DNA from: Spirochaeta sp.
GTDB taxonomy: Bacteria > Spirochaetota > Spirochaetia > DSM-2461
Reading direction: 5' to 3'
NCBI GenBank assembly: GCA_030592625.1
Contig: JAUVIY010000100.1
Span: forward strand, 1-8,185
DNA length: 8,185 nt
The position numbers and the translations under genes are program-made. The notes under the pieces were generated by a model. It ran no database searches and was not told the DNA's origin. It worked only from the letters and a program-made list of their open reading frames with translations. Below, in pieces: positions 2 through 8,185 of this stretch (position 1 is its first letter; each line of letters begins with the position of its first letter).

Positions 2-1651
2 CTAACTCTTCACCTTCTCCCGTTCATGATAGTGGGTATGCAGCAGCTCATGAGACATCTGCCCCAAAGGCTCCCCAAGAAACTCGGCGTAAAGCTGTTC
101 TACTGCCGGATTTTCATGAGACTTCCGGAGTTCCTTCCCCTCGTCTTCAGCGAAAATCGCACCGATTCGGGCCTTGCGAACTTCATCGGTGGTGTAGCGG
201 GGTTGACCACCGCCGCCGATGCAGCCGCCGGGGCATGTCATGATTTCCACGAAATGGAGGGTTTCCTCTCCGGATTTTATCTTCTTAAGCAGTGCGCCGG
301 CGTTGGCCAGTCCGTGGGCTACCGCCAGGCGGGCAGTGACGCCTTCCAGGAAGTCCCATTCGGGTTTGCAGCCGGTGAGGGTGACTTCGGCAATCTTCAC
401 CCCCTCCAGGGTGGTGAGGGGTTTAACATGGAGATTTTCCATCGGGAGGGGAGTGCCGGTGACGATTTCCCACACCGTACGCAGGGCCGCTTCCATGACA
501 CCACCGGTGTTGGCGAAGATGTCCGCGGCACCGGAGGCGATGCCCAGGGGGGCGTCCATCTTTCCATCCTCAAGTTCCATCAGATTGAGGCCGGCCCGCT
601 TGATAAGGGAGGCCAGCTCCCGGGTGGTGAGGACGTAGTCCACGTCCTGGCAGCCGCTGGAGTTCATTTCCTCCCGGGCCGCTTCGAACTTCTTGGCTGT
701 GCAGGGCATGATGGACACGACGGTCATATCTTTGGCGTCTACTCCGGCTTTACCGGCGTAGTAGGTTTTGGCCAGAGCGCCGAACATCTGCTGAGGACTC
801 TTGCATGTCGAGAGGTTATCCAGAATATCGGGCCAGTAATATTCGGCATACTGAATCCACCCTGGAGAACAGCTGGTGAACATGGGCAGGGCGGCCTCGC
901 CACCGTCCTTCAGAACGGTTTTCAGCCGGGTCAGGAGCTCGGTACCCTCCTCGATGATGGTGAGATCGGCGGTGAAATCGGTGTCGAATACGGCGTCGAA
1001 TCCGAGTCGACGCAGGGCCGTGACCATCTTGCCGGTTACCAGGGTGCCCGGAGGCCGGCCGAACTCTTCGCCCAGGGCGGCGCGGATCGCCGGTGCGGTC
1101 TGGACGACGACATGCCGATTCGGATCGTCCAGAGCGGCTTCCACCAGTGCGACATGGGAGTGTTCAGTGATGGCACCCACGGGGCATACGGCAACGCAGC
1201 GCCTGCACTTGATGCACTTCGCCGAGTCTCGAACCAGTGCCGCAGTGCTATTGTCGATGTCTCCTCCGGCGGTTTCGCCGGGATACCGGATTTCCCTGAT
1301 TCCCATGTTCCGGGCCAGCTCCTGCAGCTCGCAGTCGCCGCCCCGTTCACAGGTGGTACATTCACCTTCGTGTTCCGAAAGCATCAGCTCCACGACGGTG
1401 CGCCTGGCATTCCGGGCCCGTTTGGAATTGGTGAGGATTTCCATGCCTTCCCGTACCGGCATGGAGCATGCGGCGGCCAGAGTCGGTGCACCGATTATTT
1501 CGACGGTGCAGACCCGGCAGGCTCCCAGGGGGTCCCGACCTTCCAGCCGGCACATCGTGGGAATTGTAATACCGGCGCTTGCTGCGGCGGTGAGAATCGT
1601 ATCGTTGTTGGATGCTTCGACGGCGATTCCGTCTATGGTGATTTTAGGCAT
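2..1651 (-). CDS. hydA: [FeFe]-hydrogenase catalytic subunit, HydA-like (NAD(P)-linked group A)
   Basis: This 549-residue protein catalyses reversible 2H+ + 2e- = H2 at an H-cluster and is the catalytic subunit of the soluble complex encoded with hydB and hydC. Visible in order: an N-terminal [2Fe-2S] ferredoxin domain (C34, C45, C48, C62); a His-Cys3 [4Fe-4S] site (H94, C98, C101, C107); one CxxCxxCxxxCP [4Fe-4S] motif (C146, C149, C152, C156); the H-domain motifs TSCSPGW (259-265), MPCTAKKFE (315-323) and EIMTCPGGC (469-477); and a C-terminal small-subunit-like tail ending near LLHTHY. By alignment from memory to the Clostridium enzyme CpI, the proton-path residues C261, E235, E238, R242 and S281 are kept. 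Oddities: only one of the usual two [4Fe-4S] motifs is present, and the second Cys of TSCCPGW is Ser262. The ATG at 1651 has an AAGGAGG site 6 nt upstream. The start overlaps the end of hydB by 8 nt. Assignment to the family is secure; activity is inferred. Confidence 0.95.
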   Translation of the reverse strand: MPKITIDGIAVEASNNDTILTAAASAGITIPTMCRLEGRDPLGACRVCTVEIIGAPTLAAACSMPVREGMEILTNSKRARNARRTVVELMLSEHEGECTTCERGGDCELQELARNMGIREIRYPGETAGGDIDNSTAALVRDSAKCIKCRRCVAVCPVGAITEHSHVALVEAALDDPNRHVVVQTAPAIRAALGEEFGRPPGTLVTGKMVTALRRLGFDAVFDTDFTADLTIIEEGTELLTRLKTVLKDGGEAALPMFTSCSPGWIQYAEYYWPDILDNLSTCKSPQQMFGALAKTYYAGKAGVDAKDMTVVSIMPCTAKKFEAAREEMNSSGCQDVDYVLTTRELASLIKRAGLNLMELEDGKMDAPLGIASGAADIFANTGGVMEAALRTVWEIVTGTPLPMENLHVKPLTTLEGVKIAEVTLTGCKPEWDFLEGVTARLAVAHGLANAGALLKKIKSGEETLHFVEIMTCPGGCIGGGGQPRYTTDEVRKARIGAIFAEDEGKELRKSHENPAVEQLYAEFLGEPLGQMSHELLHTHYHEREKVKS

Positions 1652-4600
1652 GGGATTCCTCCTTCATTCGGACCTTTTTGCCGTAGTCGCAGCGCAGGCA
1701 TCGATATGCCTGTCTGTGGGCCACCGATTCGGTCCAGGGCTGTTCCACTTCATCGAAATTGTGTCGTCGCCGGTCGTGGGGCAGAACCCGCATCTTCTCC
1801 CGGGGATAGGGTGTCGGATCGGCGTCAGGATCGTAATGGGTATCGTTTTCCTGCTCCCATCGCCAGAAGGCACGGTCTTCTTCACCGCTGAGCATCGTGT
1901 CGATGCCTACGGCAGCCCGTTCTCCCGCTCCGATGGCCATCACCACTGACGATGGGCCTTCCACCGCATCACCGCCGGCGAATACGTCGGATATATTCGT
2001 AGCTCCGGTTACCGGATCGGCCTGAATGAAACCCCGTGAGTTCAGGGCAGGCACGCTGTTTCCGAATATTCCAACGGCATCCAGCCTCTGACCGATAGCC
2101 AGGATAATCTGGTCGGCGGGCAAATCAATCGATTTGTCCCGGTCGTCCGCCATCGGCGCTCTCCGGCCCGAGCGATCGAATTCTCCCAGGTGCATGGGGA
2201 GACAGACCAGTTTTTTCGCCTTCCCGTCGCTGCCTGTGATGATTTTCACAGGTTGAAGGAGGGAACGGAGGACAACCCCTTCCTGCAGGGCCTCGTCCAC
2301 TTCTTCGAGGTAAGCCGGCATCTCGTCCCGTCCCCGTCTGTAAACCACGGTAACCGATTCGGCTCCCAGCCTGAGAGCTGTTCTGGCCGCATCCACCGCC
2401 GCGTTTCCACCGCCGATGACGACAACGTTTATTCCGACTTCCACAGAACCCCGCAGATTGTAGGTTCTCAAGAACGGTACGGCCTGGACGACGCCGGGAG
2501 CATCTTCTCCGGGAAGCCCCAGAGGAACTCCGCCGGGAGCTCCAACACCCAGGAACACCGCATCGTTCATCTCACGGAGCTCTGACAGGGTGAAATCCCT
2601 GCCTATGGCCTTTTCGGTAAGTATCTCGGCTCCCATGTTCTCAATCATCCGGATTTCCCTGGCCAGAGTTTCCCTGGGCAGACGATAGGCAGGTATGGTC
2701 TGGACCAGCATGCCCCCGGGTCGGGGTTCGGATTCGTAGACAGTGGGTTTGTATCCCAGACGGGTGAGAAAGTAGGCACATGAGAGACCTGCCGGTCCGG
2801 CACCGACGATGGCAATTTTCTTTACGGCGGCTTCCTTGTCTTCATGGACATCCGGCAGTTGTATCGTGACTTCCTGGTCCACCATGTATCGTTTGATGCT
2901 TCTGACGGCCACCGATTCATCCAGTGACGAGCGGCGGCATTTATCTTCACAGGTATGGAAGCAGACCCGGGCACAAACCGCAGCAAAGGGATTTCTGTCC
3001 CTATGGAGTTTCAAGGCTTCGGCGTATCGGCCTTTACCTATAAGGGATACGAATCCCGGTACATCAACAGCTGCCGGACAAGCGCTCTGGCATGGAGCCC
3101 GGACAAGGCCGGCGCATACACCGGCGGCACAGTGTTTATCCCTGATATGCTCTTCGAATTCATTTCGGAAATGACGAATCGCCGAAAGCACCGGATTGGG
3201 GGCCGTTTGACCCAGGCCGCAGAGAGCTGTGTCCTTGATGCTGTGTCCCAGCTCAATCAGTGCTTCGATGTCACCTTCGACACCCGAACCGGCTCCGATC
3301 CGTTCAACGATTTCCAGCATTCGCTTGGTCCCCACGCGACAGGGAACGCATTTCCCGCAGGATTCCTCCTGAACGAATTCCAGGAAGAACCGTGCCACGT
3401 CCACCATGCAGGAGTCATCATCCATGACGATGAGTCCGCCGGACCCCATGATGGCTCCCCATTCCTTGAGGGACTCATAGTCCATCGGGACGGATAGTCC
3501 GGACTTGGGAACGCAGCCGCCGGAAGGCCCGCCGACCTGGGCGGCCTTGAAGGTTTTACCATCCTTCAAACCGCCGCCGATGTCATATATGAGCTCACCG
3601 AGTTTAGTGCCCACCGGCACCTCGACGAGACCCGAGTCCTCGATAGCTCCCGCAAGAGCGAATACCTTGGTGCCCTTGCTGTTTTCGGTGCCTCTTGAGG
3701 CGAATGCCGAACCGCCTCCTTCAATAACAGGTGCCACATTGGCAAGGGTTTCAACGTTGTTGAGCAGGGTGGGCTTACCCCAGAGACCGCTCACCGCCGG
3801 GAACGGCGGCCTCGGCCGGGGTTCTCCGCGCCTGCCTTCCACAGAAGCGAGAAGAGCTGTTTCCTCGCCGCAGACGAATGCGCCGGAGCCCATTCGGATA
3901 TCCAGATTGAACCCGAAACCTGTTCCGAGGATGTCTTTTCCCAACAGACCGTATTCTGCGGCACTGTCAATGGCCTTGTTCAACCGGGCGACGGCCAGAG
4001 GATATTCGGCCCGGACATACACGTATCCCATTCCGGCACCCACTGCGTAAGCGGCGATGATCATGCCCTCTATGATGGAATGGGGATCGCCTTCCAGGAC
4101 ACTGCGGTCCATAAACGCACCGGGATCTCCTTCGTCGGCATTACATAGAACGTATTTCTCATTTCCATGGGCCTCTTGAGTGAATTTCCACTTTCGCCAT
4201 GTAGGGAAGCCTGCACCTCCTCGTCCACGGAGCCCCGAAGTCTTCATCTCTTCGATGATTCTGTCGGGACCGATTTCCAGAGCCCTGGCCAGGGCGGAAT
4301 ACCCGCCGTGGGCGATGGAATCCAGGATATCCAGGGGGTCTACCTTACCGCAACGACGGAGTACCACCTTTTCCTGCAGGCGGAAGAAGTCCGATTTATC
4401 TTCAGTGGGTGCGGGTTTTCCGTCATGGCGGTTCTTGTGCAGAAGATCCTCAACCGGGTCTCCGCCCAACAGGTGTTCTTTGACGATGCGATCAGCATCC
4501 TTTTCGCAGAGTCCTTCGTAGATAATCCCCTCGGGATCCACCATCATCACCGGTCCTCTGGAACAGGGGCCCAGGCATCCGGTTTCCTTGATGGGGTATG

Positions 4601-4781: not shown

Positions 4782-5296
4782 GACACAGCTCCTTCAGAAT
4801 CCTCGGCATAAGGGGTAAGAAGTTCTTTCACTTTGGCGGATTTCACCCGCTGATGAGTATCGTCATCGATCATCACCACAGGTGCCAGGCCGCATGCTCC
4901 GAAACATCGTCCCACTTCCAATGAGAAGGTCTGGTCTTCGGTCGTTTCACCAACTTCGATCCCCAATGCGTTCTTCATGGCGGAAAGCACCTCCTGCCCG
5001 CCTCTGACATAGCAGGCCGTTCCCATGCAGACACGAACGACATGTTTGCCCCGGGGAACCGTCGAAAACCAGGAGTAGAAAGAAACCACGCCGGTCACAT
5101 GGCTGAGAGGCAGATTCAGACGCTCGGAAATGTGAATCAGAATTTCTTTCGGAAGATATCCGAGCAGGTTCTGGGCCGATTGGAGCACCGGTATGAGAGC
5201 ACCATCCCTGCCGGACCAGTCGTTAATGATACCGTCCAGAATCTCGATGGTCTGCTCGATACTCAATTCCTCATGGGTTTCCGTTTTAACGCTCAT
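4778..5296 (-). CDS. hydC: HydC, NuoE-like [2Fe-2S] thioredoxin-fold subunit
   Basis: This is the 172-residue small subunit of the hydrogenase complex. It has an N-terminal helical domain (to about residue 70, ending in the family-typical VTGVVSFYSWF) and a thioredoxin-like domain with the four [2Fe-2S] ligands C90, C95, C131 and C135 in the CMGTAC and CFGAC motifs. In NuoEF and HydBC pairs this subunit docks on the flavoprotein and takes part in electron transfer with FMN. It is the first gene of the operon and overlaps hydB by 4 nt, so the two are probably translationally coupled. The start at 5296 is preferred over an in-frame ATG 14 codons upstream (5338). The 5296 ATG has a clear GGGAGGA site just before it, whereas the upstream ATG has none. 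Length is normal for the family. Confidence 0.95.
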   Translation of the reverse strand: MSVKTETHEELSIEQTIEILDGIINDWSGRDGALIPVLQSAQNLLGYLPKEILIHISERLNLPLSHVTGVVSFYSWFSTVPRGKHVVRVCMGTACYVRGGQEVLSAMKNALGIEVGETTEDQTFSLEVGRCFGACGLAPVVMIDDDTHQRVKSAKVKELLTPYAEDSEGAVS

Positions 5297-5300
5297 GGAT

Positions 5301-5305
5301 CCTCC
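5301..5305 (-). promoter_or_regulatory. Ribosome binding site that sets the hydC start
   Basis: On the minus strand the sequence reads GGAGG, then four bases (ATCC), then ATG at 5296. No comparable purine stretch precedes the alternative in-frame ATG at 5338. This site therefore decides in favour of the shorter, 172-residue HydC. Confidence 0.8.
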
Positions 5306-5371
5306 CTGGACGGACTTCTCCCGGCACTCCGTGAACATGAGGAGTGCGGCGATTGGTGGAACCGTCGCTGA

Positions 5372-5389
5372 TTGTTAATGGGTCTACAC
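5372..5389. promoter_or_regulatory. Imperfect Rex-like site (one complete half-site)
   Basis: TTGTTAA-TGGG-TCTACAC compares with the Rex-type operator TTGTTAA-N4-TTAACAA: the left arm matches seven of seven bases, the right arm four of seven. A second TTGTTAA half-site lies at 5416-5422 without a partner. Rex senses the NADH/NAD+ ratio and controls hydrogenase and fermentation genes in several anaerobes, so the placement upstream of hydC makes sense. The match is weak. Confidence 0.25.
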
Positions 5390-5425
5390 TACGCTTTTTC
5401 AGTTGCAATCGTCCATTGTTAATCG

Positions 5426-5441
5426 ATTGGTTTTTATCAAT
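5426..5441. promoter_or_regulatory. Inverted repeat resembling a CRP/FNR-family site
   Basis: The plus strand reads ATTGGT-TTTT-ATCAAT, with five of six arm positions symmetrical. Its 14-base core, TTGGT-N4-ATCAA (5427-5440), differs at one position from the FNR consensus TTGAT-N4-ATCAA. Anaerobic regulators of the CRP/FNR superfamily are plausible controllers of a hydrogenase operon. No regulator of that family is in the window, so the identity is inference only. Confidence 0.35.
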
Positions 5442-5442
5442 T

Positions 5443-5460
5443 TAATGATATTTTTCATTA
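5443..5460. promoter_or_regulatory. Perfect 6-6-6 inverted repeat (TAATGA/TCATTA)
   Basis: TAATGA (5443-5448), a six-base spacer, and TCATTA (5455-5460) form a perfect inverted repeat. It overlaps the candidate -10 element of the hydCBA promoter and begins two bases beyond the FNR-like repeat. It could be an operator. The arms are AT-rich and short, so chance symmetry is possible. Confidence 0.35.
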
Positions 5461-5472
5461 TTACAGTGGTAA
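5445..5472 (-). promoter_or_regulatory. Candidate promoter for hydCBA
   Basis: On the minus strand, a -35-like TTACCA (5472-5467, four of six consensus bases) is followed after 16 nt by a -10-like TATCAT (5450-5445, five of six). Transcription would start near 5438, leaving a leader of about 140 nt. It overlaps the inverted repeat at 5443-5460, which is where a repressor would be expected to bind. In AT-rich DNA such matches arise by chance, so confidence is low. Confidence 0.3.
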
Positions 5473-5480
5473 TGTGGCTA

Positions 5481-5492
5481 AACCAAATGGTT
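5481..5492. promoter_or_regulatory. Inverted repeat AACCA-AA-TGGTT, possible GntR operator
   Basis: Five-base arms AACCA and TGGTT surround two bases. The site overlaps the best -35 candidate for the GntR-family gene (5488-5493), so it is well placed for autorepression. It does not show the GT...AC pattern common to many GntR operators, which counts against a firm assignment. Confidence 0.35.
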
Positions 5493-5516
5493 AATAAATG
5501 AGAAAATCACTATTAA
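5488..5516 (+). promoter_or_regulatory. Candidate promoter for the GntR-family gene and deoC
   Basis: TGGTTA (5488-5493) and TATTAA (5511-5516), 17 nt apart, are weak -35 and -10 candidates. An alternative -10, TAGAAT (5534-5539), lies so close to the GTG start that it would give an almost leaderless message. Neither is strong, which would fit low-level expression of a regulator. Confidence 0.25.
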
Positions 5517-5546
5517 ACAAAACTTAAATGATTTAGAATACAAAAA

Positions 5547-6353
5547 GTGGACAGGCCAATCCAATCACAGTATTCTATCAAAGTTGAGACTCCCTCGCTG
5601 ACTGAAAGGCTGTATCGTCGCCTCCTGGATTCTTTGAAGGATGTTTACAATCCGGGGGATAAGTTCCCGTCGGAACGGGACGTGGCCAGACGCTTCGGTG
5701 TCAGCCGGCCCACGGCGGCCCGTGCCATGGCCCGGCTGATGGATGAAGGGCTTATCGAATCCCGGAGAGGGGCCGGCCGTTTCGTCCGGAGGCCGCCGCT
5801 GGACTACGATCTGAGTTCCCTGGTGAGTTTCACTTCGCGCTGCAGGTCGGAAGGTGTGAAACCCACTACCGAAGTGCTGGAGTTCACCCCCCCGGGACTT
5901 GGTAATATTCCTGATGAAGCGATCAGGGAGCTGCAGCTGCTTCCCGGGGAGGGAACCTATCATTTCACCCGCAGACGTTTCGCCGACGGCCGACCCGTGA
6001 TTCTCGAACGACGCTGGCTGGCGGCCCGATTCTGTCCCGGGCTGGCCAAGGCTGATGTGGCAGGCTCTCTCTACGATCTACTCAAAGAGCGGTATGCCCT
6101 GGCTCCCGCCGGCGCCCGGCAGGTGATACGGTCCGTCATCCTCGAGGGAAAAGACCGCACTTTATTCTGGGAAGATGAAGTGGGAGCCGCATTCGAAATC
6201 ATGGCCACCGGGTATCTTGAAGGGGGGGTGCCTCTGTGGTACGAGCGCACCCTGTATCAGGGCAGTACATACGAATTCCATAACAGACTCGGCCCCTTAT
6301 CCACGGCCAGACCGGCCGTCAGCGTTTTGAGAATCGCAAAGGAGAGTAAATGA
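5547..6353 (+). CDS. GntR-family transcriptional regulator with UTRA ligand-binding domain (HutC-type)
   Basis: This is a 268-residue DNA-binding regulator. Residues about 17-81 form a GntR winged helix-turn-helix, with the recognisable PSERDVARRFGVSR helix-turn-helix core (41-54) and an RRGAGRFV wing (73-80). Residues about 92-245 form a UTRA effector domain, with SEGVKPTTEV (101-110), DGRPVILERRWL (147-158) and PLWYERTLYQGSTYEF (229-244). UTRA regulators of the HutC/FarR type bind small metabolites such as sugar phosphates. Here the coupled deoC suggests a deoxynucleoside-derived ligand, but that is inference. The start is GTG at 5547. An in-frame TGA at 5529 with no start codon between them excludes anything further upstream. 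No Shine-Dalgarno sequence precedes it. The gene overlaps deoC as ATGA, so both are one operon. Length is normal for the family. Confidence 0.9.
   Translation: MDRPIQSQYSIKVETPSLTERLYRRLLDSLKDVYNPGDKFPSERDVARRFGVSRPTAARAMARLMDEGLIESRRGAGRFVRRPPLDYDLSSLVSFTSRCRSEGVKPTTEVLEFTPPGLGNIPDEAIRELQLLPGEGTYHFTRRRFADGRPVILERRWLAARFCPGLAKADVAGSLYDLLKERYALAPAGARQVIRSVILEGKDRTLFWEDEVGAAFEIMATGYLEGGVPLWYERTLYQGSTYEFHNRLGPLSTARPAVSVLRIAKESK
6339..6344 (+). promoter_or_regulatory. deoC ribosome binding site within the end of the regulator gene
   Basis: AAGGAG lies 5 nt before the deoC ATG, inside the last codons of the GntR-family gene. With the ATGA stop/start overlap it supports translational coupling and confirms the ATG at 6350 as the deoC start. 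Confidence 0.8.
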
Positions 6354-7075
6354 AATACAACTATGAAGACGTCGCGAAGATGATCGATCACTCTCTTCTG
6401 AATCCCACCCTGACACCCGATGATCTGGAGAATGGCTGCCGCCTGGCTGCAGCTTATGATGTCGCCAGCGTATGCATCATGCCCTTCGCTGTTACCGGCG
6501 CGGCAGCAATCCTGGCGGGAACCGGTGTCGCGGTGGGAACCACAGTCGGTTTTCCCCACGGGTGTAATACTACGACGGTAAAACTGGTGGAAGCTGAACA
6601 GGCCATGCAAGACGGCGCCGTAGAGCTGGACATGGTAATCAACATATCTCTGGCACTGGCAGGCCGTTACGATGAAATCGGCAAAGAGGTGGAAACTATC
6701 ACCGCTCTGGCCCATCGAGGCGGGGCACGGCTCAAGGTGATCTTCGAGAACTGCTATCTGAACGGCAACGTAATCAAGTCCCTGTGCGATGTGTGCGGAA
6801 CAACCGGTGCCGATTGGGTGAAAACCTCCACCGGATATGGTGGAGGAGGTGCTGTCAATGCCGACCTGAAACTCATGCGCAAGCTCTCTCCCGATCATGT
6901 TCAGATTAAAGCGGCCGGCGGCGTGCGCACACTGGACAGGCTCCTCGAAGTGCGGAAGTTCGGCTGTACAAGGGCCGGTGCCACCCGTACGGCAGCTATC
7001 CTTGATGATGCCAGGGCTCGCCTGGGATTGGATCCCATCAAAGGATTCGACGGGGAATTGCCGGCAGATTGTTAG
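6350..7075 (+). CDS. deoC: Deoxyribose-phosphate aldolase (DERA)
   Basis: This 241-residue class I aldolase cleaves 2-deoxy-D-ribose 5-phosphate to acetaldehyde and glyceraldehyde 3-phosphate, the last step of deoxynucleoside catabolism, in the cytoplasm. The family signature is clear: IDHSLLNP near the N-terminus (12-19), VGFPHG (66-71), ELDMVIN with the conserved Asp94, LKVIFEN with Lys129, VKTSTGY with the Schiff-base Lys158, and IKAAGGVRT with the second active-site Lys187. Length lies between the short Bacillus-type and the longer E. coli enzyme. The C-terminus after CTRAGATRT is a short extension ending ELPADC with no obvious C-terminal tyrosine of the E. coli type. It is coupled to the upstream GntR/UTRA gene, and no other deo or nucleoside-uptake gene is in the window. 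Its stop codon overlaps that of the convergent exporter gene. Function is well supported; a different short-chain aldol substrate cannot be excluded. Confidence 0.93.
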   Translation: MKYNYEDVAKMIDHSLLNPTLTPDDLENGCRLAAAYDVASVCIMPFAVTGAAAILAGTGVAVGTTVGFPHGCNTTTVKLVEAEQAMQDGAVELDMVINISLALAGRYDEIGKEVETITALAHRGGARLKVIFENCYLNGNVIKSLCDVCGTTGADWVKTSTGYGGGGAVNADLKLMRKLSPDHVQIKAAGGVRTLDRLLEVRKFGCTRAGATRTAAILDDARARLGLDPIKGFDGELPADC

Positions 7076-8185
7076 TCCGTGTTCGAGTCCTCAACCCGGT
7101 CCTTCCGGGTGAGGTCATTTATCCATTTACCCGATCTGAAACGCCGAAAGGTGAGGATGAATTTGAATATCTCCTCGAGTCCTACCAGGAGATAGACCAC
7201 CGGCAGACTGAAGTCGAGGACCAGTCCGGCGACGAACGCCATGGGTACACCGATTCCCCAGACACCCAGAAGCTCTGTTACGAAAGAATAGGTTGTATCG
7301 CCGCCGCTCCGTAGTATGCCGACAATCATGTGAAGATTGAATGACTTGATGGGGATGAGTACTCCGAGAGCAATGAGGGTGAGACGGACCAATGCGATGG
7401 TATCCGGTTTCATCTTGAGCAGCAGGACTATTGCCGGTGCTGTGGCGGACATGAGCAGACCCAGGGCGATCCCCAGAAAAAGACCCTGGATCAGGAAATA
7501 CCGGGCGAACAGATAAGCATTATCTTTATTTCTCTCGCCGATTTTTTTACCGACCATGATGGCGGCGGTATTACTGGTTCCCATAAGGATGACGAAAAAC
7601 AGGTTCTGTATCGATTCGGTTATATTGGCAGCGGCAACGACATCGGTTCCCATTCTGGCAAATACAATCTTGTACATCACCATGCCGAGTGACCATGCGA
7701 TCTCATTCAGCAGGACGGGTCCTGCGGTCATGATGAATCTCTTTACCATAGCCCTGTCGAATCCGAGGTATTCCCTTATGGTTGTCGCCACAGGAAGTCG
7801 GCGGGAATAAATAAAAGTCACTGTGACAACAAGTTCGACTCCCCGGCTGATGAGGGTGGCGATTGCCGCACCCCGGACTCCAAGGGCGGGAAATCCGAGA
7901 TAGCCGAAAATAAGGACGAGGTTCAATACCGTGTTGAGGCCCATACTGATCGCGGTGGCGGCCAGGGGAATCCGGGGTCTTTCGATGGAGCGGAGTGCCA
8001 TCGCGAAGCAGAAGGAAATACCGGAGAAGATATAGCTTGGAGCGATGATACGGAGGTATTCGACGCCCAGTTTCACCACGACGGGATCCGGGGTGAACAG
8101 CCGCATCAGCTCATGGGGGAATAACCATGAGGCAAGGGCGAAGGAGACCGCGAAAATCATGGACCCGACCAGGGACAGTCCGACG
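7072..8185 (-). CDS. MATE-family multidrug/cation exporter (5' end beyond the window)
   Basis: This inner-membrane transporter, probably Na+- or H+-driven export of organic compounds, is missing its N-terminus. The reading frame stays open through position 8185, and the internal Met at 8160 is preceded in frame by VGLSLVGS, so it is not the start. About 370 residues are visible against a usual MATE length near 450, so roughly the first 80-90 residues lie outside. Repeated hydrophobic segments fit the C-terminal ten or so of twelve helices. The segment around LFTPDPVVVKLGVEYLRI is typical of the loop and helix in the first half of the fold, and RGAAIATLISRGVELV is also family-like. The basic C-terminal tail contains RFRSGKW. 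Substrate cannot be told from sequence. It runs convergent to deoC with a 4-nt overlap and shows no functional link to it. Confidence 0.88.
   Translation of the reverse strand, partial: VGLSLVGSMIFAVSFALASWLFPHELMRLFTPDPVVVKLGVEYLRIIAPSYIFSGISFCFAMALRSIERPRIPLAATAISMGLNTVLNLVLIFGYLGFPALGVRGAAIATLISRGVELVVTVTFIYSRRLPVATTIREYLGFDRAMVKRFIMTAGPVLLNEIAWSLGMVMYKIVFARMGTDVVAAANITESIQNLFFVILMGTSNTAAIMVGKKIGERNKDNAYLFARYFLIQGLFLGIALGLLMSATAPAIVLLLKMKPDTIALVRLTLIALGVLIPIKSFNLHMIVGILRSGGDTTYSFVTELLGVWGIGVPMAFVAGLVLDFSLPVVYLLVGLEEIFKFILTFRRFRSGKWINDLTRKDRVEDSNTD
7089..7114. terminator. Terminator-like hairpin just after deoC, inside the MATE gene end
   Basis: CCTCAACCCGG and CCGGGTGAGG can pair as a 10-bp stem with one bulged A and a five-base TCCTT loop. 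It begins 14 nt after the deoC stop. The following plus-strand bases (TCATTT) are only moderately T-rich, so it is a poor intrinsic terminator by the usual criteria. It is coding sequence for the exporter C-terminus, so termination would depend on dual-use DNA. Confidence 0.35.

Follow-up and report, generated by a model that had tools for sequence, protein, structure and literature searches.

How does an [FeFe]-hydrogenase of the electron-bifurcating type work when the ferredoxin domain of its HydB subunit is replaced by a module of the GltD type? This question is raised by a stretch of 8,185 nucleotides from Spirochaeta sp. contig JAUVIY010000100.1, referred to below as the window, which encodes the three subunits of a HydABC (also named BfuABC) hydrogenase on the minus strand, the genes being arranged C-B-A with hydA last on the contig. 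With a probability of roughly 0.55, we propose that the enzyme would couple H2 to both NAD+ (at flavin mononucleotide, FMN) and NADP+ (at flavin adenine dinucleotide, FAD), with NADP(H) replacing ferredoxin on a core of bifurcating type. The window HydB is a new member of an architecture described in 2024 (mSystems; PMC11406978) from Hydrogenedentota under the name sub-type I BfuB, together with relatives that occur in Spirochaetota and further phyla. A first-pass annotation made from the sequence alone had left open whether this architecture had been characterised; it had been described, and the passages of that description compared here contain no biochemistry.

HydB is a protein of 1045 residues encoded in a single open frame with no internal stops. 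Pfam analysis identified the domains 2Fe-2S_thioredx (25-102), Complex1_51K (180-350), SLBB (374-422), NADH_4Fe-4S (461-545), Fer4_20 (552-638) and Pyr_redox_2 (655-953), Fer4_20 being the 4Fe-4S DPD domain II. An FMN/NuoF core is thus followed by DPD_II and a C-terminal FAD/NAD(P) domain, with no B3/B4 domain, which is the arrangement that defines sub-type I BfuB. The Pfam scan found no ferredoxin-type Fer4 tail, the C-terminal 2[4Fe-4S] domain by which ferredoxin-dependent HydABC is recognised, and the ferredoxin motif CxxCxxCxxxC behind H545 occurs in none of 176 fusion rows (defined below); on these two grounds a conventional ferredoxin tail on the window HydB was ruled out. Among the NCBIfam models, those for NuoF cover approximately residues 151-556, while GltD-type models (PRK12771, PRK12814, gltA) start at about 515-561 and run onward; all 25 HydB matches listed, of 56, score under the curated cut-offs, as is expected for a fusion. 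The first-pass annotation had placed a whole GltD/NfnB-like module where HydB should carry its ferredoxin domain and had proposed a domain search of the 1045-residue protein as a check. The search agreed with it, and the span it had marked, 1644-3140, corresponds to residues 548-1045, i.e., the entire extra module. Its prediction of a single polypeptide with FMN, FAD and two pyridine-nucleotide sites is likewise supported by domain models and alignments.

The HydB-GltD fusion is real, being more than chance or an assembly error. A protein search scored 7999 candidates, the best 120 of which, as listed, were the window protein and 119 others of 1002-1070 residues with 93-100% query coverage and 64-89% identity. 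An essentially full-length match was present in 20 of 61 genomes, its own included (G000, G005, G007, G009, G014, G018, G020, G024, G027, G028, G030, G033, G041, G042, G048, G050, G051, G052, G054, G055), at 60% identity or more in 19 and at 45% in G052, with pieces of the fusion in several further genomes among the matches listed. All 20 also contain an unfused HydB-like match, classed by its end near residue 561-612; in G000 contigs C375 and C324 hold such matches as fragments. Scanning the genome contigs with a 40-row alignment gave at least 80 loci. In 46 of these (L028-L073) an open frame holds both halves, some frames being ended by the contig end and that of L070 falling into two overlapping frames. 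The record titles of fused loci name Spirochaetes, Actinomycetota, Deltaproteobacteria, Bacteroidales, Proteobacteria, Clostridia/Firmicutes, Kiritimatiellae, Halanaerobiales, Chloroflexota, Omnitrophota, Verrucomicrobia, Acidobacteria, Planctomycetota, Nitrospirae and Atribacteria, and a tree of HydB cores groups the window with the Spirochaetota fusions. Conservation was read from 176 fusion rows (window excluded), made up of the 119 listed homologues and 57 of 65 loci, eight loci with fewer than about 400 aligned module residues being omitted; six pairs between the two sources are more than 99% identical, so that about 170 rows are distinct. That two genes were joined in assembly might be suspected from the fragmented source genome (438 contigs, completeness 73%) and from an odd deletion in the adjoining HydA. 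The chance of this is negligible, because the 119 homologues listed beside the window protein have the same fusion, as do genomes assembled into one or a few contigs (G050, G051 and Moorella G062, G063 and G066), and the survey that the first-pass annotation had suggested thereby refutes a join.

The core in front of the module retains most of what marks a bifurcating enzyme. The B2 site of NiFe-HydB consists of C438, C476 (Thr in FeFe enzymes), H525, C531 and C536, and its His, which non-bifurcating homologues do not have, is missing from just 8 of 1558 BfuB (PMC9304861); a zinc ion was seen to hold the linker in StnB (PMC10482914). In alignment with NiFe-HydB (7t2r_B), window residues H545, C551 and C556 correspond to H525, C531 and C536, and C458 also aligns; these four are invariant in the 176 rows. 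The B1 and B2/zinc ligands of ferredoxin-dependent bifurcating HydABC are therefore present, save for Gly496 at the fifth B2 position, which is Cys in 93+24 rows and Thr in 15+26. T518 was considered as the fifth ligand and rejected, as the alignment puts that ligand at position 496. Because the aligned ligands are invariant, CxAGVC is read as two ligands of a conserved metal site, with the fusion joint directly behind it; it had earlier been called a remnant (C551, C556), for which the positions were right and the word was not. Judged by these ligands, the HydB core belongs to a bifurcating enzyme, with most of the ligand set kept.

The module itself is, on alignment evidence, of StnC type, circularly permuted and with a lysine cluster ligand. 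When searched with phmmer, it matched 9bov_A (367.7 bits), 9n5u_A (361.5) and StnC (8oh5_C, 341.8) along its length, and NfnB chains 4ylf_B (285.4) and 5jca_L (244.1) each in two pieces. The C-terminal RCLRC (C1028, C1031) of the window HydB pairs with RCLQC at the N-terminus of NfnB, as in a circular permutation, and the glutamate ligand and N-terminal RCLxC of NfnAB are replaced here by Lys630 and the C-terminal motif. By homology, two [4Fe-4S] clusters are predicted with the ligand sets C1028, C1031, C564, C615 and C568, C607, C611, K630, an assignment that follows the StnC paper and the cluster ligands of DPD. The single row without Lys at position 630 (L065) has His, where NfnB has Glu. 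Among other GltD-like proteins of the source genome, the equivalent residue is Glu (L004), Lys (L005) or Gln (L006), and L005 also has a C-terminal RCLEC. Residues R815-R816, which we take to be an NADP signature and specificity determinant, are conserved as RR in all but two rows. In these two (L055 667-3873 and L060 5932-9123) Leu-Glu stands in their place, perhaps making the proteins NAD-specific; L060 adjoins a molybdopterin subunit. In StnC, K170, the counterpart of K630, was shown to be important for the FAD-proximal cluster, and the FAD was concluded to be non-bifurcating (PMC10482914).

The partner subunit was then compared across loci. The window HydA contains Fe_hyd_lg_C, small-subunit, Fer2, His-ligated NuoG cluster and single Fer4 domains (Pfam), and has the H-cluster motifs P1, P2 and P3 (TSCSPGW, MPCTAKK and EIMTCPGGCIGGGGQ) by which sub-type I BfuA is recognised. 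Against the NCBIfam model for the group A6 'exception' it scores 754.7, slightly under the cut-off of 765. It has one CxxCxxCxxxC motif, where two occur in 39 of 39 recognisable HydA partners, two relatives of the same genus included. The join coincides with the codon for the third Cys of the two motifs, as recombination between them would leave it, and the gap may have arisen in this way or by assembly error. With the second motif missing, the window HydA departs from the 'M3a' type given as typical for sub-type I, which presumably has the full cluster set. Neighbours of the 65 fused loci (L009-L073) were an H-cluster-motif HydA in 39, a NuoG-like protein only in 15, and neither in the stretch examined in 11; some of the 15 are cut, e.g., that of L018, of which 146 residues remain, with 58% identity to HydA. 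Pfam analysis of 12 of the 15 (those of L018, L059 and L061 left out) found molybdopterin-oxidoreductase domains in 11 (L032, L034, L051, L054, L056, L057, L060, L062, L063, L072, L073) and the NuoG part alone in one cut protein. In NCBIfam, formate dehydrogenase alpha was the best model for all five of the 11 that were searched, above cut-off in L072 and L073. In its gene context, the same fused core is therefore encoded beside subunits of either hydrogenase or, as predicted, formate dehydrogenase.

On a tree of 105 HydB cores, built by a quick method (65 fused, 34 ferredoxin-tailed and 6 tail-less, of which L074 may only be cut), the tail labels need seven changes, and starred branches force at least four for the fused label, with the direction of change left unsettled. 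A second, tail-less NuoE/NuoF pair lies near the fused gene at L040 (8098-10404), L043 (9413-11581), L070 (9845-11985), L031 (1614-3652) and L042 (6608-8741), and these five tail-less NuoF form a clade of their own.

Exchange of the tail is best seen in Moorella, where the HydB tail, from sequence comparison, is exchangeable between ferredoxin and GltD types on a near-identical core. The full 1011-residue fusion is present in 9 of 11 Moorella genomes (89-100% identity). G068 has part of it, cut short by a contig end, and G071, inferred to be M. thermoacetica, has none. At the like place G071 encodes HydC, a 620-residue HydB, HydA and then the same sensor gene as the fused locus L046, whose strain, titled M. 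thermoacetica DSM 21394, is called M. caeni in PMC11328732. The G071 HydB carries a 2[4Fe-4S] tail, yet its core is 85-100% identical to that of L046 in each block of 40 residues between 161 and 520 (about 90%). Its HydA is 93.2% identical to that of L046, where eight fused species span 90.4-96.7%; its HydC is merely 71% identical. In the Moorella trees the HydA row of G068 is a mis-hit to a sensor protein. The N-terminal domain of the ferredoxin-tailed G071 HydB (L132 4751-6610) is 76% identical to a stand-alone BfuD (L046 5608-5979), and BfuD and the HydB N-terminus look as if they had traded places in Moorella. Around the L046 operon lie genes for a DRTGG protein (4119-4457), a HATPase (5057-5611) and a fusion of a sensor-type [FeFe] domain with a sigma-54 activator (12747-14993), which perhaps serve H2-sensing control. 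The M. thermoacetica HydABC is said, in the title of a 2013 paper by Wang et al., to be ferredoxin- and NAD-dependent. The HydABCDEF of this species was considered as a characterised case of the fusion, the L046 operon having about six genes, and was rejected, as neither soluble hydrogenase of G071 is fused. In the strain study, every Moorella isolate is said to encode a trimeric bifurcating hydrogenase hydABC, and one M. humiferrea isolate grew on H2 + CO2 while others did not (PMC11328732).

In the enzyme as we propose it, electrons from H2 would reach FMN by way of HydA and B1. A gate of FMN, C1 and B2 would pass one electron pair to NAD+, while the second would travel by way of both DPD_II clusters and FAD to NADP+, the whole H2/NAD/NADP route being reversible. 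The FAD of the module would not bifurcate but act as an ordinary flavin, which is what was reported for StnC, and ferredoxin would not be a substrate. A plausible role would be the reversible balancing of H2, NAD and NADP, alongside the unfused HydB of the same genomes. From the potentials in Table 1 of PMC9304861, NADH + NADPH could evolve H2 to approximately 150 Pa, compared to 3 Pa for NADH alone and 16 kPa for NADH + ferredoxin. The source genome has two Fe_hyd_lg_C genes (in the window and on C375), and an RnfC and a pyruvate:ferredoxin oxidoreductase above cut-off; ferredoxin enzymes are therefore present elsewhere in it. More tentatively, at odds a little short of even, these complexes may form a ferredoxin-free branch of Bfu in which the low-potential exit ends in NADP(H), H2 (or formate in sister complexes) is split into NADH + NADPH, and the exit tail is exchangeable.

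A number of observations weigh against this proposal. A biochemical study of the fusion was not found among the search listings of the open-licence PMC literature. The GltD module of Stn is an electron input through B1, and the direction of electrons in the fused HydB is therefore a guess. The corresponding clusters of Nfn connect to ferredoxin (PMC10482914), and the fusion may therefore not have lost its use. Glycine at position 496 is confined to the window and its closest relatives (11 rows, with two near-identical protein pairs among them). The HydA gap would break the cluster chain and the window copy may be impaired; the case for function is made on the family. The arginine near FAD, R700 (R201 in NfnB, R239 in StnC), is present in all 176 rows and therefore cannot tell a bifurcating FAD from a non-bifurcating one. 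Finally, the AlphaFold model of HydB is moderate, with a mean pLDDT (predicted local distance difference test) of 77.6, falling below 50 at 560-566 and 613-619, and a pTM (predicted template modelling score) of 0.52, and it places the two halves only tentatively.

The ferredoxin lead of the Nfn clusters, taken together with the conserved remainder of the bifurcating core, would fit an enzyme whose DPD_II clusters still trade with ferredoxin while FAD adds NADP(H), linking all four substrates. Given that the dedicated 2[4Fe-4S] tail and its motif are missing from every row, and that the relatives carry unfused HydB too, such a four-way link is unlikely. If the module did no more than add an NADP site, H2 would reduce NAD+ or NADP+ alone, as in an ordinary non-bifurcating hydrogenase or transhydrogenase. 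The HydABC of Syntrophomonas wolfei, whose HydB has no B3/B4, is indeed reported as non-bifurcating (PMC11406978), and an NADP+-reducing hydrogenase, though of another architecture, is known in Moorella thermoacetica; the B2/zinc His, reported absent from non-bifurcating homologues (PMC9304861), is however kept in 176 of 176 rows, and we regard this explanation as improbable.

It was postulated in PMC11406978 that the FAD bifurcates as in NfnB, forming a second centre beside FMN-FeS. Homology of the module to NfnB and the conserved arginine speak for this, but the bit scores lie nearer to StnC-type chains, with which the lysine ligand and the permutation are shared, and no NfnA-like protein was found among the six open reading frames of the window that were scanned, the rest of the genome not having been searched for it; a second centre of this kind would be a surprise.

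Comparison with known systems places the locus further. With sub-type I BfuABC (group A3, Hydrogenedentota), the window shares DPD_II and FAD/NAD(P) in the B3/B4 place and, as in most Spirochaetota relatives, the absence of BfuD (PMC11406978); it differs in the cluster motif missing from HydA, and the evidence against a bifurcating FAD departs from that paper. The bifurcating HydABC of T. maritima, A. woodii, T. kivui and M. thermoacetica share HydA with its H-cluster, HydC, the HydB FMN core, B1, most of the B2/zinc site and B5, whereas their B3/B4 ferredoxin tail is replaced in the window by the GltD-type module. A HydBC-like core and a permuted GltD module with a lysine ligand are common to the Stn/Nfn-ABC transhydrogenases (8oh5, 9bov, 9n5u). 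In Stn, for which this was shown, the module is on the NuoG-like subunit, StnB retains a ferredoxin-like tail and there is no H-cluster, whereas in the window HydB carries the module and the H-cluster domain is borne by the NuoG-like subunit. The likeness to Sporomusa-type Nfn (Stn) raised earlier thus holds for the kind of module and fails for its place (PMC10482914). NfnAB shares the GltD/NfnB fold, two [4Fe-4S] clusters, FAD and an NADP(H) site, and differs in its glutamate ligand, N-terminal RCLQC, bifurcating FAD, NfnA partner and lack of a hydrogenase. The NADP+-reducing HydABCDEF of M. thermoacetica (FEBS J 2024, as cited in PMC13391211, PMC13040438 and PMC11328732) reduces NADP+ with H2, which is one part of what is predicted here for the fused enzyme, but the HydB inferred for it (L133) is ferredoxin-tailed and lacks a GltD module. 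A relation to the glutamate synthase-linked group A2 (HydDB), also raised earlier, did not hold: a GltD domain is indeed encoded beside a group A HydA, but the rule for A2 demands GltD and excludes NuoF in the downstream protein (PMC5037454), whereas here both are in HydB, which rules out membership. That rule is worded for a downstream protein, while in the window HydA is the last gene of the C-B-A order. The literature passages compared did not mention the evidence from the lysine and the permutation, the pairing of the fusion with formate dehydrogenase subunits or the swap of tails in Moorella, and no wider priority is claimed.

Table 1. Features of the hydrogenase locus in the window, with coordinates on the 8,185-nucleotide stretch.
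Feature	Position	Strand	Evidence
HydC/BfuC, NuoE-like [2Fe-2S] subunit, 186 aa	4778-5338	-	PF01257 E 4.8e-49; HoxE/NuoE models
HydB-GltD fusion (sub-type I BfuB), 1045 aa	1644-4781	-	Pfam, NCBIfam, homologue and genome searches
HydA/BfuA, H-cluster subunit, 549 aa, stop codon at contig edge	2-1651	-	PF02906 E 2.5e-93, PF02256; motifs TSCSPGW, MPCTAKK, CPGGC
HydA site where 43 residues with relatives' second CxxCxxCxxxC motif are absent, in frame (129 bp)	1184-1216	-	Comparison with relatives
Thioredoxin-like [2Fe-2S] N-terminal domain 'B5', residues 25-102; C32, C37, C69, C73	4476-4709	-	PF01257 E 2e-6; Cys columns compared in 176 fusion rows, some rows without them
FMN/NADH-binding NuoF core, residues 180-350	3732-4244	-	
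NuoF-type [4Fe-4S] 'B1' domain, residues 461-545; C475, C478, C481, C521	3147-3401	-	PF10589; four Cys in 176/176 rows
B2/zinc site ligands H545, C551, C556 (C458 at 3408-3410)	3114-3149	-	Alignment to 7t2r_B and 7q4v_B; 176/176 rows
DPD_II/Fer4_20 domain in ferredoxin-tail place, residues 552-638; C564, C568, C607, C611, C615	2868-3128	-	PF14691 E 2e-21; five Cys in 176/176 rows
K630, counterpart of StnC K170 (glutamate in NfnB)	2892-2894	-	Alignments; Lys in 175/176 rows; PMC10482914
FAD/NADP(H) domain, residues 655-953	1923-2819	-	
R815-R816 in VYRRGRDEMPA motif, predicted NADP(H) selector	2334-2339	-	RR in 174/176 rows
RCLRC at C-terminus (C1028, C1031)	1689-1703	-	Split phmmer match to 4ylf_B, 5jca_L; 175/176 rows, remaining row cut

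The flank of the hydrogenase genes (5547-8160) encodes a GntR/UTRA regulator, a deoxyribose-phosphate aldolase and a MATE transporter, with no evident link to the hydrogenase.

By the NuoF rule, operons of this kind would be classed as bifurcating, ferredoxin-linked group A3, though the ferredoxin domain is missing, and the bifurcating hydABC label given to fusion-bearing Moorella species deserves a second look. It is not settled how one FMN can bifurcate in enzymes of the HydABC type, the ferredoxin tail being thought to be the low-potential exit. The fusions are natural experiments in which this exit is replaced by a pyridine-nucleotide module, and the Moorella pair, with near-same HydA and core and different tails, allows the two to be compared directly.

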